Source: Terriglobia bacterium (GTDB lineage Bacteria; Acidobacteriota; Terriglobia; Terriglobales; Acidobacteriaceae). Taken from it: DNA of 64,000 nucleotides. The position numbers were made by a program, and so were the translations under genes. Where the stretch lies: the NCBI GenBank assembly GCA_020073665.1, contig JAIQEU010000002.1:186001-250000 (forward strand), in the 5' to 3' direction. Positions within the stretch are counted from its first letter, which is position 1. Every line of letters begins with the position of its first letter. Of the stretch, positions 12,967-32,736 are shown piece by piece. Below the pieces are notes generated by a model, which did not search any database, was not told where the DNA came from, and saw nothing but the letters and a program-made list of their open reading frames with translations.

Positions 12967-13005
12967 TTGTGAGGCATATCACAATCAGCTGTGCTTTTTA
13001 TCACA
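12967..13005. promoter_or_regulatory. Tandem CRP-type operators, 22 bp apart
   Basis: First site TTGTGAGGCATATCACAA (12967-12984), a perfect dyad. Second site TGTGC-TTTTTA-TCACA (12990-13005) on the same face of the helix, exactly 22 bp downstream. They lie between divergent TonB-like and Crp-like genes and could control both. Confidence 0.65.
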
Positions 13006-13037: not shown

Positions 13038-13053
13038 CGTGATGCCGGTCACA
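13038..13053. promoter_or_regulatory. Third CRP-type dyad before the Crp-like gene
   Basis: CGTGA-TGCCGG-TCACA, 48 bp beyond the second site and 44 bp before the GTG start; position would suit autorepression. Confidence 0.45.
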
Positions 13054-13096
13054 CGCAGTTGGCCACACCGGAGACGGACGTCACAGGGGGTTGTTT

Positions 13097-13819
13097 GTGA
13101 TCTCACCTTACGGACTGGACATCATCGAAAGCTGTCTGACCTGCAAGATGCGGGTAGACCGCATTTTCTGCGACCTTCCCACGTCGGCGTTGCAGTCCTT
13201 TGAAACCATCAAGTACGCCACGGCTTACCCCAAGGGCGCCGTCCTGTTCGTGGAAGGCCAGTCCCCGCGCGGCATTTTCGTCCTCTGCAAGGGCCGGGTG
13301 AAGCTTTCCATTTGCGCCACCGACGGCAAGACCCTGATCCTCAAGATTGCCGAGCCCGGCGAGGTCCTGGGCCTGAGCGCCACCGTTTCCGGCAAGCCCT
13401 ACGAGTTGACCGCCGAAACCGTCGATCCCTGCCAGGTGAACTTCGTGAAGCGGGAAGACTTCCTGCGTTTCCTGAAAGAGCATTCCGATGCCTGCTTTAA
13501 AGTGGCCGAGCAGTTGAGCGAAAAATACAACAATGCCTGCCATGAAGTGCGCTCCCTGGGGCTGTCCCATTCCGCCGGCGAGAAACTGGCCAAGCTGCTG
13601 CTGGAATGGAGCTCCAAAAACGGGGAAGCGGCCAAGCAGGAACCGCGGCTGAAACTGGCGCTTACCCATGAAGAGATTGCGCAAATGATTGGGACCTCGC
13701 GGGAAACCGTGACCCGCCTGTTCGCCGACATGAAAAAGCGGCAAATCGTGCAGGCCAAGGGCTCGACCCTGGTGATTCGCAACAAGGCCGCCCTGAAACT
13801 GATGGCCACCAACAACTAG
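13097..13819 (+). CDS. Crp/Fnr-family transcription regulator
   Basis: 240 residues from the GTG at 13097, six bases behind AGGGGG. An N-terminal cysteine cluster C13-x2-C16-x8-C25 precedes a cyclic-nucleotide-binding fold (YPKGAVLFVEGQSPRGIFVLCKGRVKLSI, PGEVLGLSATVSG), a dimerisation helix and a winged HTH with LTHEEIAQMIGTSRETVTRL. The recognition-helix SRETVTR (about 200-206) keeps Arg, Glu and Arg at the positions that read TGTGA in E. coli CRP. The effector cassette lacks the usual cAMP-binding Arg-Ser, so a different signal is likely; the cysteines suggest an Fe-S cluster or thiol sensor. Flanked by TGTGA-type dyads. Confidence 0.88.
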   Translation: MISPYGLDIIESCLTCKMRVDRIFCDLPTSALQSFETIKYATAYPKGAVLFVEGQSPRGIFVLCKGRVKLSICATDGKTLILKIAEPGEVLGLSATVSGKPYELTAETVDPCQVNFVKREDFLRFLKEHSDACFKVAEQLSEKYNNACHEVRSLGLSHSAGEKLAKLLLEWSSKNGEAAKQEPRLKLALTHEEIAQMIGTSRETVTRLFADMKKRQIVQAKGSTLVIRNKAALKLMATNN

Positions 13820-13840: not shown

Positions 13841-13878
13841 TGTGCCCCCGGTCACGATCAGGGGTGACTGTAGTCACT
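13841..13878. promoter_or_regulatory. Tandem CRP-type operators, 22 bp apart
   Basis: TGTGC-CCCCGG-TCACG (13841-13856) and GGTGA-CTGTAG-TCACT (13863-13878). The second is 34 bp before the start of the HTH-less paralogue. Confidence 0.6.
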
Positions 13879-13911
13879 GTGTTCTCTTCTCCGTAGCGGT
13901 ATCACAAGACT

Positions 13912-14406
13912 ATGGAGAGCGTCATACAACAGAGCTGCTTCGATTGTGTCCTGCGGCCCGACCGGCTCTTCTGCGATCTGCCTTCGGACGCCCTGCAAGC
14001 GTTTGACGGCATCAAGTCCGTGAGCCTGTATCCGCGGGGAACCACGTTGTTCCGCGAAGGCCATGCCGCACGGGGTGTCTTCGTGCTGTGCGAGGGCCGC
14101 GTCAAACTGTCGGTGTGTTCGGAGACCGGCAAGCGCTTGACTCTTCGTATCGCGGGGCCCGGAGAAGTCCTGGGGCTCAGCGCCTCTCTTTCCAGCCGTC
14201 CCTATGAAGTGACTGCCGAGACGCTGGAAAATGTTCGGGTGGCGGTGGTGAAGCGCAAGGACCTGCTGCGGTTCCTGCGCGACCACCGGGAGGCGTGCTT
14301 GCAGGTGGTCAGCCTGTTGAGCCAGGACTTGCATACTGCCTATGACCGCGTGCGTTCCATCGGATTGGGACGCAGTCGCCGGTCCCGGGCCCTGCGCGTC
14401 CACTGA
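13912..14406 (+). CDS. Crp/Fnr-type sensor domain protein lacking the DNA-binding domain
   Basis: 164 residues, clearly paralogous to the preceding regulator along its first 150 residues. The same cysteine cluster (C9, C12, C21), LYPRGTTLFREGHAARGVFVLCEGRVKLSVCSETG and PGEVLGLSASLSSRPYEVTAET are all present. The chain stops just after the dimerisation helix, at VRSIGLGRSRRSRALRVH, where the paralogue continues into its winged HTH. No remnant of an HTH is seen after the stop, so this looks like a settled domain loss rather than a fresh frameshift. It could be a sensor-only or heterodimerising modulator; that is inference. Confidence 0.8.
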   Translation: MESVIQQSCFDCVLRPDRLFCDLPSDALQAFDGIKSVSLYPRGTTLFREGHAARGVFVLCEGRVKLSVCSETGKRLTLRIAGPGEVLGLSASLSSRPYEVTAETLENVRVAVVKRKDLLRFLRDHREACLQVVSLLSQDLHTAYDRVRSIGLGRSRRSRALRVH

Positions 14407-14542
14407 CCCCGAGCGCCGGGGGGGTATCCAAGACTCTGCCCATCCGAAATCGTCGTTTCTCTGGCGAACCCCTACCCCCTTGTATTCCACCCGGTCGGCG
14501 CCCGCGCCGGCGTTTTTCTTTCCCCCTCGATGCCCAACACGT

Positions 14543-14580
14543 TGTGACCGCCATCACGGCAGGAAGTGACCACATTCACT
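14543..14580. promoter_or_regulatory. Tandem CRP-type operators, 22 bp apart
   Basis: TGTGA-CCGCCA-TCACG (14543-14558) and AGTGA-CCACAT-TCACT (14565-14580), about 70 bp upstream of the 11-haem cytochrome gene. The wider 14407-14649 interval otherwise holds no gene. Confidence 0.65.
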
Positions 14581-14649: not shown

Positions 14650-16725
14650 ATGCCAGACGTGAGTGCGGGCGTTCCGAGACCAAGACCCAGCCACCGGACC
14701 CTGGCGTCTGTGGCCGTGCTCCTGTTGGTCTTTCTCGCCGGCGGCGCCTTCGCCGCTCAGAAACCAACCAAGCCCAGCAACGACGATTGCCTGGTGTGCC
14801 ACGGCGACCCGACCCTTACCAAGGACGTAGGCGGTAAGCCGGTCAGCCTTTACGTGAACCCGGACAGCTTCAAGAACTCCATCCATGGAGGCCTGTTTGG
14901 CTGCGTAGACTGCCACACCGACGTCAAGACCTCGCCGCACGAGAACACTCCAGCTCACATCACCTGCGCTACCTGCCATGCCGACGAGCAGGCGGCCTAT
15001 GGGCGCAGCTATCACGCCAAGGCGATCAAGGCGGGCGATGGCCAGGCCGCGACCTGTGTGGACTGTCACGGCAGCCCGCACGAACTGCTGCCCGCCAGCG
15101 ATCCCAAGTCACGGGTCAACCACGCCAATATCCCAGCCACCTGCGGCGTATGTCACAGCCAGAAGTTCGTGATGGAAGCCAGCGGGCACAGCGCCCAGCC
15201 GTTCTTTTCCTACGAGGAAAGCGTGCATGGCCGCGCGGTGGCGGCTGGATCGGATAAAGCGGCCGTCTGCACCGATTGTCACGGTACCCACGAAATCCTG
15301 GCAGCCACCGATCCCAAGGCGTCTATCTTCAAGTTCAATGTGCCCCTGACATGCGGGAAGTGCCATGCGGCCGTGCAGCAGGAGTTCACCAAGAGCATTC
15401 ACGGGCAGGCGATCGCACGCGGGAACTCGGAAGCCCCGGTGTGCACCGATTGCCATGGCATCCATTCCATCAAGTCACACATTGATCCCAATTCGTCGGT
15501 CGCGTCCCTGAACCTGGCGCGGAGCACCTGTGCGCGCTGCCACGAAGGAGTGCGACTGGGGCAGGAGTTCGGGTTTGAGGGACGCCGCGCGACCACCTAT
15601 CTGGCCAGCTATCACGGCTTGGCCTCGAAGCTGGGTTCGCAAGTAGTGGCCAATTGCGCCAGTTGCCACGGAGTCCACAACATCCTGCCGTCGAGCGATC
15701 CCAACTCCACCATCAATCGTGCCAACCTGGTCAAGACCTGCGGCCAGTGCCATCCCGGAGTCACGGAGAAATTCGTGGCCGCCAAAGTCCATGTGGATGC
15801 GCCGCTCTCGGCCGACACCGGCAGCATCGCGGTGCGTTGGATCCGCAAGTTCTATCTGGGCATGATATGGCTGGTCATTGGCGGCATGGTGCTGCACAAC
15901 CTGATCATCTGGCGCCGCAAAGCCATCCTGCGGCGAAAAACCGAGCATCGCTTGGTAACCCGCATGAGCCGCAACCAGCGGCTCCAGCACGTGCTGCTGT
16001 TCAGCAGTTTCATCGTTCTGGTGCTGACTGGATTCGCTCTGAAATTCCCCGACTCCTGGTTCGCCAGCCTGCTGGGACTGGGCGAGAAAGTGCGAAGCAT
16101 CGCCCACCGCGTGGCCGCGGTCATCCTGATCGGAGTGGGCACGTACCACCTGTTCTACCTGGTGCTGAGCCGCGACGGGCGTCGCTTGATTCAGGATTTT
16201 CTCCCCGCACCCAAAGACGCTTCCGATGTCTGGGGCACTCTGCGCTACTACCTGGGTTTGGGCTCGGAGAAGCCCGAGTTTGCTCGCTTCAACTATGCGG
16301 AGAAAGCGGAATACTGGGCTCTGGTGTGGGGCATGTTCGTCATGGCCGGCACCGGAATCATGCTCTGGGCCAAGGTGGCGGTTGGCAACCTGCTGCCGCG
16401 CTGGTGGCTCGACGTGGCCACTGCCATCCATTTTTATGAAGCCGTTCTGGCCACGCTGGCGATCGTGGTCTGGCACTTCTACCAGGTGTTCCTGGATCCT
16501 GATGTGTATCCCATGAACTGGGCATGGTGGGACGGGAAGATGCCTTTCGAACACTATGCCGAAGAACATGGCCTCGATACCAATACTCTGCTGGAGGCTG
16601 CTCGCAGCGAAGTGGCGGAGCGCGCCGAGGAAGAGCCGGTGCTCCCCGCGGTCGAAGGTCCCGTGGCGCCAGGCGAACCTGCCGCGCCCGAGGCTGACCG
16701 CGAACCGGTGAATTCTCGCAAATAG
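14650..16725 (+). CDS. Undecahaem cytochrome c fused to cytochrome b561-like membrane domain
   Basis: 691 residues. A signal sequence (about 18-36, ending FAAQ) is followed by 11 CxxCH haem-c motifs between residues about 47 and 373, with repeated DCHG(T/I)H and DP(K/N)S units characteristic of multihaem electron-transfer proteins. From about residue 400 to 620 come several membrane helices with conserved His (NRQLQ-like HVLLFSSFIVLVLTGFALKF; HRVAAVILIGVGTYHLFYL; AIHFYEAVLATLAIVVWHFYQ), as in b561-type quinol oxidoreducing subunits. It would move electrons between the quinone pool and periplasmic acceptors. The tail is acidic and Pro-rich. A pair of CRP-type dyads precedes it. Confidence 0.88.
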   Translation: MPDVSAGVPRPRPSHRTLASVAVLLLVFLAGGAFAAQKPTKPSNDDCLVCHGDPTLTKDVGGKPVSLYVNPDSFKNSIHGGLFGCVDCHTDVKTSPHENTPAHITCATCHADEQAAYGRSYHAKAIKAGDGQAATCVDCHGSPHELLPASDPKSRVNHANIPATCGVCHSQKFVMEASGHSAQPFFSYEESVHGRAVAAGSDKAAVCTDCHGTHEILAATDPKASIFKFNVPLTCGKCHAAVQQEFTKSIHGQAIARGNSEAPVCTDCHGIHSIKSHIDPNSSVASLNLARSTCARCHEGVRLGQEFGFEGRRATTYLASYHGLASKLGSQVVANCASCHGVHNILPSSDPNSTINRANLVKTCGQCHPGVTEKFVAAKVHVDAPLSADTGSIAVRWIRKFYLGMIWLVIGGMVLHNLIIWRRKAILRRKTEHRLVTRMSRNQRLQHVLLFSSFIVLVLTGFALKFPDSWFASLLGLGEKVRSIAHRVAAVILIGVGTYHLFYLVLSRDGRRLIQDFLPAPKDASDVWGTLRYYLGLGSEKPEFARFNYAEKAEYWALVWGMFVMAGTGIMLWAKVAVGNLLPRWWLDVATAIHFYEAVLATLAIVVWHFYQVFLDPDVYPMNWAWWDGKMPFEHYAEEHGLDTNTLLEAARSEVAERAEEEPVLPAVEGPVAPGEPAAPEADREPVNSRK

Positions 16726-28779: not shown

Positions 28780-28817
28780 AGTGACGGCCGTCACAATTCC
28801 TAGTGACATGAATCACG
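28780..28817. promoter_or_regulatory. Tandem CRP-type operators, 22 bp apart
   Basis: AGTGA-CGGCCG-TCACA (28780-28795) and AGTGA-CATGAA-TCACG (28802-28817). They sit 150 bp from the Rieske start and about 80 bp from the radical SAM start, so either or both transcripts may be controlled. Confidence 0.65.
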
Positions 28818-28895
28818 GCCCCTCCGGTCATCCTCTTCTATGGTTGCAAGCGAGGGGTGGTAGGCAACTCCCGAGGCTACTGGAGGAGGCGTCAC

Positions 28896-30199: not shown

Positions 30200-31057
30200 A
30201 TGGCTGACCAAGTGAGCCAACTCGGCACGCTTCCGGGGCAACGCCTGCACGGCATGATCGTCCCTCGCGAGCACGGCGCCTGGGGCATGCTGCTCATGCC
30301 GCTGGCGACGGGCGCCGCCGTAGGTCTGATGAGCAGTGTGCAGGTGCTGCCGCTAGTGTTGTTTACCGTCGCCGCCCTCGGCCTTTTCTGGATGCGAACT
30401 CCAGTGGAGAGTTGGCTCGGGATGAGTCCCCTGCGGGCGCAGTCGGATCAAGAGCGTGGAGCGGTGCGGCGCGCGATCCTTGCTTTGGCCTCTGCCGTGG
30501 CGCTGGCATTGGCCGGCTTGTTCTGGGGTGGACAGAACGCTTACCTGCTTCTGCTGGGAGCGATTTGTGGAGTGGCGTTTGCCGCCCAGGCAGTGCTGAA
30601 AAAGTTGGGCCGCAAGACCCGCATGGCCGCGCAGGTCGTAGGTTCGCTGGGATTAACCTCCACTGCCCCCGCGGCCTACTACGTGGTCACCGGACATCTT
30701 GATCTCACCGCGTGGGCGCTGTGGTTTGCCAACTGGCTGTTTGCCGGCGATCAGATTCATTTCGTGCAGCTTCGCATTCACGCAGCGCGGATGACCAATG
30801 TGCGCGAAAAGCTGGTCCGCGGTCGCGGTTTCCTCGTCGGGCAAGCGGCGCTGGCCGCGGCGCTGCTGGTGGCTTGCCGTTTCGGCCTGCTTCCTGCCCT
30901 GGCGCTGCTGGCCTTTGTGCCTGTGCTGGTTCGTGGACTCCTGTGGTTCTTCAGCGGCCCTCAGCCCTTGCTCGTGCGCCGCTTGGGCTGGACCGAACTG
31001 GCCCATGCCGTGGCGTTCGGGATGTTGCTCATCTTCTCTTTCGGATTCTCCCGTTAG
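30200..31057 (+). CDS. YwiC-like membrane protein
   Basis: 285 residues with about seven to eight membrane helices. The opening VPREHGAWGMLLMPLATGA is the YwiC family signature. In Bacillus subtilis ywiC lies beside fnr and narK, genes of anaerobic respiration; here it lies between a radical SAM haem-type enzyme and a Crp-like regulator, a comparable setting. Biochemical role unknown. The likely start is ATG 30200; GTG 30179 is possible. Confidence 0.8.
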   Translation: MADQVSQLGTLPGQRLHGMIVPREHGAWGMLLMPLATGAAVGLMSSVQVLPLVLFTVAALGLFWMRTPVESWLGMSPLRAQSDQERGAVRRAILALASAVALALAGLFWGGQNAYLLLLGAICGVAFAAQAVLKKLGRKTRMAAQVVGSLGLTSTAPAAYYVVTGHLDLTAWALWFANWLFAGDQIHFVQLRIHAARMTNVREKLVRGRGFLVGQAALAAALLVACRFGLLPALALLAFVPVLVRGLLWFFSGPQPLLVRRLGWTELAHAVAFGMLLIFSFGFSR

Positions 31058-31071
31058 GTACAATACCCTGC

Positions 31072-31776
31072 GTGCCCGACACGAAAGACAACCTCGCCGA
31101 AACCCTGTCGAAGGTGCCGTTGTTTTCCGGCCTCACCGAAAGCGAGCTGAGTTTTCTGGCGCAGCGTGCGGTGCCGCGCCACTACACCGCCGGCCAGATT
31201 GTCTTCAGCGAAGGCGAACCCTGCACCGGGATGTACGTGGTCGAGTCCGGCCACATCCGCATTTTCAAGAGTTCGGCAAGTGGACGTGAGCAAGTCTTGA
31301 GTGTGGACGGGCCGGGCAGCTCGGTAGCCGAGTTGCCGGTGTTCGACGGTGGCAATTACCCGGCCTCGGTCGCGGCCGCCGAGGACGCCACCCTGCTGTT
31401 CGTCAGCAAGCAGGACTTCCAGGCGCTCTGCCTGACCCACCCCCAGGTGGCCCTGAAAGTACTGCGGATCGTGGGAGCACGCCTGCGTCGCCTGGTAGGA
31501 ATCATTGAGGAACTGTCGTTCACCACGGTGCGCCACCGGCTGGTGTCATTGCTGGTACGGCTGGCGCAAAAAGAGGGCAGCGGCGTGGCCGGCAGTACCG
31601 AGGTCGCACTGCCCGTCAGCAACCAGGAACTGGCCGCACAGATTGGAACCGTGCGTGAACTGGTATCCCGCAATCTCAGCCGGCTGCAGGCCGAGGGCCT
31701 GATCCAGATGGACGGCCGCAGCGTGGTCATCCCCAACCTCAAAGCCCTGGAAGCCGAACTGGAAAGCGCCGGCTAG
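31072..31776 (+). CDS. Crp/Fnr-family transcription regulator
   Basis: 234 residues from a GTG 12 bases after the YwiC-like stop. A cyclic-nucleotide-binding fold (AGQIVFSEGEPCTGMYVVESGHIRIFK, GPGSSVAELPVFDGG) precedes a helix and a winged HTH (LPVSNQELAAQIGTVRELVSRNLSRLQAEGLI). The recognition helix VRELVSR also has the Arg-Glu...Arg pattern. It lacks the N-terminal cysteine cluster of the regulator at 13097 and so probably senses something else. Likely co-transcribed with the radical SAM and YwiC-like genes. Confidence 0.9.
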   Translation: MPDTKDNLAETLSKVPLFSGLTESELSFLAQRAVPRHYTAGQIVFSEGEPCTGMYVVESGHIRIFKSSASGREQVLSVDGPGSSVAELPVFDGGNYPASVAAAEDATLLFVSKQDFQALCLTHPQVALKVLRIVGARLRRLVGIIEELSFTTVRHRLVSLLVRLAQKEGSGVAGSTEVALPVSNQELAAQIGTVRELVSRNLSRLQAEGLIQMDGRSVVIPNLKALEAELESAG

Positions 31777-32013: not shown

Positions 32014-32736
32014 ATGATGAGCCTGACTGCTACCAAGACGGTGCGCGAACTGGCCGTGGAAATTCCCAATGCCACCCGGGTTTTCGAAAAACTGGGCATC
32101 GACTATTGCTGCGGCGGCGCCCGTTCGCTGGAAGAGGCCTGCCAAGCGGCCAACTTGTCGATTGACCAGGTGCTGGATCAGTTGAACGGCGCCGCGCAAC
32201 CGGCAGTGTCAGCCGAGCGTGACTGGCAGGCTGCGCCGCTGGCCGACCTGGTCGAACACATTGTCAGCACCCACCATAAGTACGTCCGCGAAGAGACCGC
32301 CCGGCTGCATCCGCTGTTGGCGAAGGTCTGCAAGGTTCATGGGCAAAACCACCCCGAACTGCACGCCATAAACGACACGTTCGATGGCTTGGCACAGGAA
32401 CTCACCATGCACATGATGAAGGAAGAAGTCGTGCTCTTCCCCCACATTGTCCGGATGGAGGAAGCGGCCCTGCAGAAAGAGCCGGTGCTCCCGTCCGCCT
32501 TCGGCACCGTGCAGCACCCGGTGCACATGATGATGCAGGAGCACGACTCCGCCGGCGACGCGCTGCGGAAGTTGCGCGAAGTGAGCAACGGCTACCAGGC
32601 TCCGCCGGACGGCTGCTTCAGCTATCGCACCCTCTACCAGGCCTTGGAAGCCTTTGAAGCCGATTTGCACCAGCACATTCACCTCGAGAACAACATCCTT
32701 TTCCCCCGCGCCGTGGATATGGAAAGCGCGGGATAA
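32014..32736 (+). CDS. Iron-sulfur cluster repair di-iron protein RIC (YtfE/ScdA)
   Basis: 240 residues. The ScdA N-terminal domain (residues about 8-60, with EKLGIDYCCGGARSLEEAC) is joined to a hemerythrin-like four-helix bundle with metal-ligand His and Glu residues: VEHIVSTHHKYVREE, HMMKEEVVLFPHI, MMQEHDSAGDALRKLR, and LHQHIHLENNILFPRA. RIC proteins repair Fe-S clusters damaged by NO or oxidants. Placement directly before a nitric oxide reductase fits an NO-defence role. GAGGAGAAC precedes ATGATG, so 32014 or 32017 is the start. Confidence 0.93.
   Translation: MMSLTATKTVRELAVEIPNATRVFEKLGIDYCCGGARSLEEACQAANLSIDQVLDQLNGAAQPAVSAERDWQAAPLADLVEHIVSTHHKYVREETARLHPLLAKVCKVHGQNHPELHAINDTFDGLAQELTMHMMKEEVVLFPHIVRMEEAALQKEPVLPSAFGTVQHPVHMMMQEHDSAGDALRKLREVSNGYQAPPDGCFSYRTLYQALEAFEADLHQHIHLENNILFPRAVDMESAG

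Follow-up and report, generated by a model that had tools for sequence, protein, structure and literature searches.

A conserved Crp/Fnr paralogue without a DNA-binding domain, and a candidate damper of its full-length neighbour, in soil Acidobacteria

A short Crp/Fnr paralogue lies behind a full-length regulator

The window analysed here (64,000 nucleotides of a Terriglobia bacterium of the Acidobacteriaceae) carries, on its plus strand, a full-length Crp/Fnr-type regulator at 13097..13819, a short paralogue of 164 amino acids at 13912..14406 and a multihaem cytochrome c / cytochrome b gene at 14650..16725. The regulator likely starts at the GTG at 13097 rather than the TTG at 13091, judging from the V[IL]SPYG-type starts of its relatives. 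Its product has a PF00027 domain together with HTH_Crp_2 (PF13545) and Crp domains in Pfam, a Crp-type helix-turn-helix (HTH) with an R-E-x3-R recognition helix and an FNR-type set of cysteines, three near the N-terminus and a fourth within the beta-roll, so that it resembles Escherichia coli CRP in its recognition residues and FNR in its cysteines. Among 42 full-length partners from related genomes, the CRP R180, E181 and R185 residues are found in 42, 41 and 41 proteins respectively, while the CRP R82 position is Tyr in all 42; binding of cAMP by the full-length protein is therefore unlikely.

The short protein is 55% identical to this neighbour over 151 gap-free residues, and both have a C-x2-C-x8-C cluster near the N-terminus (C9, C12 and C21 in the short protein; C13, C16 and C25 in the full-length one), in line with the parallel first drawn between them by a reading of the sequence alone. 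Its sole Pfam domain is PF00027 (E 3.4e-19), the cNMP-binding-type beta-roll of the Crp/Fnr family, and no NCBIfam family scored above cut-off. The Crp-type HTH (PF13545) is missing from the Pfam result, and no HTH remnant appeared when the three forward frames were translated to 14640. When the stretches downstream of 47 short genes (median 400 nt) were searched by tblastn with an HTH query, the only match was at chance level (L144, E 0.13, opposite strand), while the same query recovered 43 of 43 full-length 3' ends. Pfam, the downstream frames and the structure model described below thus agree with the sequence-only reading that the product stops just past its dimerisation helix. A frameshift concealing an HTH is ruled out, as no HTH was found in these forward frames or behind the relatives.

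The short gene is conserved and evolves under constraint

To assess conservation, 47 short proteins were read, one from each of 47 genomes belonging to this family of soil Acidobacteria. A truncated full-length copy (L156) and a case cut by a contig end (G210) were left out, a locus containing N (L157) was used in the tree only, and loci from repeat genomes (L115, L116, L137 and others), as well as L040-L044, apparently the same genomes again, were not recounted. Counted by eye among the matches listed, the short frame has a match in at least 46 of 398 genomes of the family. At E <= 1e-58, matches occurred in 14 of 399 genomes of the class and in 5 of 396 genomes of the phylum, all of them from this same family. 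A phage origin was also considered, and one scan of viral contigs returned no relative of the short protein.

The lengths of the short proteins are similar, with 44 of the 47 between 160 and 172 amino acids, one of 145 and two of 181. The observation made on a single sequence is therefore confirmed and its extent is greater than first described: the point at which orthologues stop is about the same across dozens of genomes, no HTH was found behind them in any frame, and both results speak against a sequencing error at about 14390-14410 that would restore one. In 43 of the 47 genomes a full-length regulator precedes the short gene in the same orientation; these include one case in which the full-length frame overlaps the short one (L141) and one in which it is cut (L135). 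An adjoining full-length regulator is absent at L143 and L146, whose genomes are 67-74% complete, and at L152 and L153; two of these four genomes (G014 and G011) have only homologues of 58-63% identity, elsewhere in the genome. At a further locus (L158, genome G028), a homologue of the cytochrome gene comes next after the full-length regulator, with no short gene detected between the two. The regulator thus occurs in at least one genome without the short gene, which was either dispensable there or lost.

For selection we relied on the 14 closest pairs (dN < 0.12, among 31 pairs listed; not independent of each other), in which the short gene had dN/dS values of 0.016-0.192 and its full-length partner 0.005-0.098. 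These values indicate that the short gene is under constraint, yet evolves faster than its full-length partner. The 17 deeper pairs gave 0.46-0.87 and 0.12-0.40 respectively, values that come from divergent sequences and a simple NG86 estimate without base-composition correction and that could also reflect looser constraint on the short gene. Medians over all 460 usable pairs were 0.27 (short) and 0.08 (full-length). In a quick tree of 122 rows, all 52 HTH-less rows fall on one side of a branch with SH-aLRT support of 93. Because the position of the root is not known and several HTH-less rows are long branches, a single loss of the HTH is consistent with this tree, which falls short of proof.

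The short gene has a class II-like promoter with tandem operators

An operator, GTGACTGTAGTCAC, lies at 13864..13877 on the plus strand, its centre 41.5 bp 5' of the ATG of the short gene, and is preceded by a degenerate copy, GTGCCCCCGGTCAC, at 13842..13855. From the footprint of 46 operator-aligned promoters, the -10 hexamer is predicted to be TATCAC (13900..13905) and transcription to start at 13912, the A of the ATG. Further plus-strand sites include tandem operators spaced 22 bp apart at 12968..13005, in the gap that separates the full-length regulator from a divergent gene, a third operator 5' of the regulator at 13039..13052, and tandem operators 5' of the multihaem cytochrome gene at 14544..14579. 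The divergent gene beyond the 12968..13005 operators is TonB-like by eye.

Exact GTGA-N6-TCAC sites number nine in the window against 0.81 expected, a count reached in none of 100 shuffles. A relaxed 16-mer with up to two mismatches showed no window-wide excess (22 versus 21.1 by chance), so the evidence for operators rests on the exact sites and on their 22-bp pairing, which recurs at about 13841/13863, 12968/12990, 14543/14565 and 28780/28802. Across the organism's own 5.42-Mb genome, the tandem pattern with one mismatch allowed was found 17 and 16 times on the two strands, versus once on each in a reversed control, and the exact single operator 194 times versus 43. The earlier suggestion that the short gene shares the tandem operators of its neighbour is well borne out by these counts.

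This arrangement is retained among the relatives. Of the 47 short genes, 46 have an exact site in the 110 nt upstream (L153 is the exception). With the centre of this operator set at -41.5, position -12 is T in 32 of 46 promoters and position -11 is A in 34, and the TA dinucleotide falls exactly at -12/-11 in 29. The second copy, 22 bp further upstream, deviates by no more than one base in 28 of 46 and by three or more in 14; its TCAC half is retained in 45, while the left half is degenerate. The distance from the first base of the operator to the ATG is 48 nt in 19 of 46 genes and 44-52 nt in 39, and in these 39 the ATG is therefore at, or at most four bases from, the predicted +1. In the remaining seven the distance is 60-63 nt, and for one of these (L118) an earlier ATG would give the 48-nt spacing. 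An operator at -41.5 with the ATG near +1 is what we take to be the class II geometry of a Crp/Fnr-activated, near-leaderless gene. Where feedback on the regulon had been proposed, the sequences support its wiring only: a predicted connection from regulator to short gene is strongly supported because the exact operator is present in all but one case and stands at a class II-like distance in 39.

The recognition helices of six regulators in this genome, including the neighbour, read SRET[VI]TR, so several regulators may act at the same operators. As to the genes under tandem sites, the product of 14650..16725, a putative regulon member, has NrfB-like and formate dehydrogenase gamma NCBIfam matches below cut-off. 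Such sites also precede a radical SAM gene at 28857 that resembles haem b synthase (again below the NCBIfam cut-off) and, by eye only, 2-oxoacid:ferredoxin oxidoreductase-like and HypD-like genes. This gene set suggests an anaerobic or redox regulon. The tandem operators at 28781-28816 lie between divergent genes, with the radical SAM gene on the plus-strand side and, on the minus strand, a gene leading to cytochrome b / multihaem genes. A second Crp-type regulator (31057-31776) precedes a gene for iron-sulfur cluster repair (RIC) at 32014-32736, which scored above the NCBIfam cut-off.

The cysteine triad is mostly kept and the fourth FNR-type cysteine is missing

The sequence-only reading held that the short protein keeps the sensor and its cysteines, which is only partly right. 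The triad (codons within 13936..13974, plus strand) is indeed present as a whole in 40 of the 47 short proteins, with C9, C12 and C21 found in 40, 42 and 41 respectively; it is entirely lost in L020, L152, L154 and L159, and partly in L150, L151 and L153. In the full-length proteins C13, C16 and C25 are invariant (42 of 42) and a fourth cysteine, C112, occurs in 40 of 42. C112 was equated with FNR C122 by eye, through the common spacing ET-x3-C-x3-F, while a MAFFT alignment did not place FNR C29 and C122 on C25 and C112. In the C112 column only two of the 47 short proteins have Cys, the others having Ser (21), Ala (12), Val (7), Gly (3) or Leu (2). Given this missing fourth cysteine and the losses of the triad, an FNR-type four-cysteine Fe-S cluster is most likely impossible in the short protein. 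The complete loss of the triad in some retained short genes also indicates that it is dispensable for gene retention. The short protein thus differs from E. coli FNR in lacking the fourth cysteine and from both FNR and CRP in lacking the HTH, and the triad spacing here is x2-x8 rather than the x2-x5 of E. coli FNR.

The C-terminal helix could support pairing

An AlphaFold2 model of the short protein (15 alignment rows; mean pLDDT 80.4, pTM 0.70) consists of a beta-roll and one long helix, the predicted C-terminal dimerisation helix, at residues 126-155 (14287..14376, plus strand), with pLDDT below 50 for residues 1-11 and 158-164. The helix is followed by a basic tail of low model confidence (residues 156-164; 14377..14403, plus strand). 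Tails could be parsed in 44 of the 47 relatives and are net basic in all 44, extending 12-24 residues past a VR motif in 42. Among the best 50 structural matches listed, proteins of the CRP/FNR family scored Z 16.6-19.6; ion-channel cNMP domains fell within the same range (one channel ranked tenth, Z 17.9), and the fold alone therefore names no ligand.

Two helix positions bear on dimerisation. The equivalent of FNR I151 is Tyr in 42 of 42 full-length proteins and Leu (43) or Val (4) in the 47 short ones, with Tyr, Cys, Phe or His in 30 of 31 other HTH-bearing paralogues. The equivalent of FNR D154 is Ala in 42 of 42 full-length and 46 of 47 short proteins. In E. coli FNR, the D154A variant is reported to dimerise without the cluster and I151A to fail to dimerise (PMC5934665). 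With Ala at the D154-equivalent, the short and full-length proteins may therefore each be able to dimerise independently of a cluster. The difference at the I151-equivalent fits heterodimers and separate homodimers equally; Tyr opposite Leu or Val could also favour separate homodimers, and we count it against heterodimers. C129 of this helix (codon 14296-14298) is Cys in 47 of 47 short proteins, and its full-length counterpart, C133, in 39 of 42.

Possible functions of the short protein

Few bacterial regulators have been studied as thoroughly as the Crp/Fnr proteins. The loss of the HTH, the conservation, the position directly behind the regulator and the spacing of operator and -10 element are all seen in the sequences themselves; that the gene is activated in vivo and that heterodimers form and inhibit is what we infer. 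In this model the adjoining regulator, or a paralogue sharing its recognition helix, would activate the short gene directly from its class II promoter; the short product would pair with regulator subunits through the C-helix; and the resulting dimers, having a single DNA-reading head, would leave the regulator damped. As the regulator appears to switch the short copy on, this copy may be a built-in brake. We give an even chance to this view of the short protein as a regulator-induced paralogue, consisting of sensor and dimerisation parts only, that damps the adjoining regulator through heterodimers.

Precedent makes such damping the likeliest function. TrlR of Agrobacterium is a truncated TraR paralogue without the DNA-binding domain that forms inactive heterodimers, and CerN of Cereibacter sphaeroides is an HTH-less paralogue that opposes DNA binding by full-length CerM and is encoded at a neighbouring locus tag (PMC11655674). 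The short protein is of the same kind, a paralogue that has the sensor and dimerisation parts but lacks a DNA-binding domain, although heterodimers are known for TrlR/TraR and would be predicted here. Both precedents belong to the LuxR family, with an acyl-homoserine-lactone signal for CerN/CerM and 88% identity between TrlR and TraR, whereas the pair described here is 55% identical and occurs in many genomes of one family. Closer in family are Fnr1 and Fnr3 of Herbaspirillum seropedicae, Fnr paralogues that are reported to heterodimerise via the dimerisation helix, as we suppose here, but which both bind DNA and co-activate (PMC5934665). No natural Crp/Fnr antagonist lacking a DNA-binding domain was among the matches listed in the open-licence PMC literature; a laboratory-made HcpR without its DNA-binding domain served as a negative control in one study (PMC12750200). 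A conserved partner of this type under the regulator's control would be a Crp/Fnr counterpart of the antagonists TrlR and CerN and an extra feedback layer in anaerobic gene control.

It is possible, but clearly less probable, that the short protein forms its own homodimer and is a plain member of the regulon, serving as a sensor or adaptor that would bind another protein or a small ligand. Consistent with such a role, its helix has a distinct conserved signature, with Leu or Val at the I151-equivalent, and of the divergent HTH-less cNMP-fold proteins in these genomes 16 of 22 share the operator (see below). A free-standing effector, however, need not be encoded behind the regulator, as the short gene is in 43 of 47 genomes.

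More doubtful is a positive role, in which heterodimers with one HTH and a basic tail would read half-sites or tune promoter choice. The near-universal TCAC half of the upstream operator, whose other half is often degenerate, and the basic tail of every parsed protein could be read in this way, but a weak cooperative site yields the same operator pattern, no more than one mismatch is present in 28 of the 46 upstream copies, and full-length homodimers would be enough for activation at the intact site. Finally, a decaying duplicate, frameshift or assembly error is very improbable: such cases do occur (L185, outside the set, looks frame-shifted by eye) and the short gene does evolve faster than the full-length one, but the similar ends in dozens of genomes, purifying selection between close pairs, the kept promoter and the failure to find any HTH remnant rule out a pseudogene or a sequencing or assembly error.

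Most dispersed HTH-less relatives share the operator

The same genomes encode other, dispersed HTH-less cNMP-fold proteins (27-48% identity to the query protein, frames of at most 210 amino acids). Pfam found no HTH in ten of them (eight of the 22 analysed, plus L010 and L215). Of the 22, 16 have an exact operator no more than 350 nt upstream of the core, versus 10 of 35 HTH-bearing paralogues (Fisher p 0.0023), a comparison in which matching is imperfect, with controls that include genomes from other families of the class. Six HTH-less frames in control loci (three with an operator, three without) were not counted; the apparently frame-shifted L185 is one of the 22, and L153 and L154 belong to this set as well as to the 47 short proteins. 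Relative to the anchor, the operator lies between -106 and -151, a narrow band, in 13 of the 16 HTH-less cases and in two of the 10 HTH-bearing ones. In the genome studied here, all four HTH-less genes checked have the operator (the short gene, L202, L203 and L010). A -10 signal at a fixed offset is weaker in the dispersed genes than in the short genes, and the C-helices of the dispersed proteins under this operator have diverged, which fits a role other than pairing with this particular regulator.

A broader reading, which we put forward tentatively and regard as unlikely, is that several HTH-less 'satellite' subunits pair with HTH-bearing regulators into one-headed dimers, most of the satellites being switched on via the regulators' own GTGA-N6-TCAC operator. 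If true, this layer would retune the whole anaerobic-respiration network of these Acidobacteria. Separately, L185 (568-1197, genome G004) is a Crp/Fnr paralogue whose C-terminal end appears frame-shifted by eye and which has no exact operator upstream.
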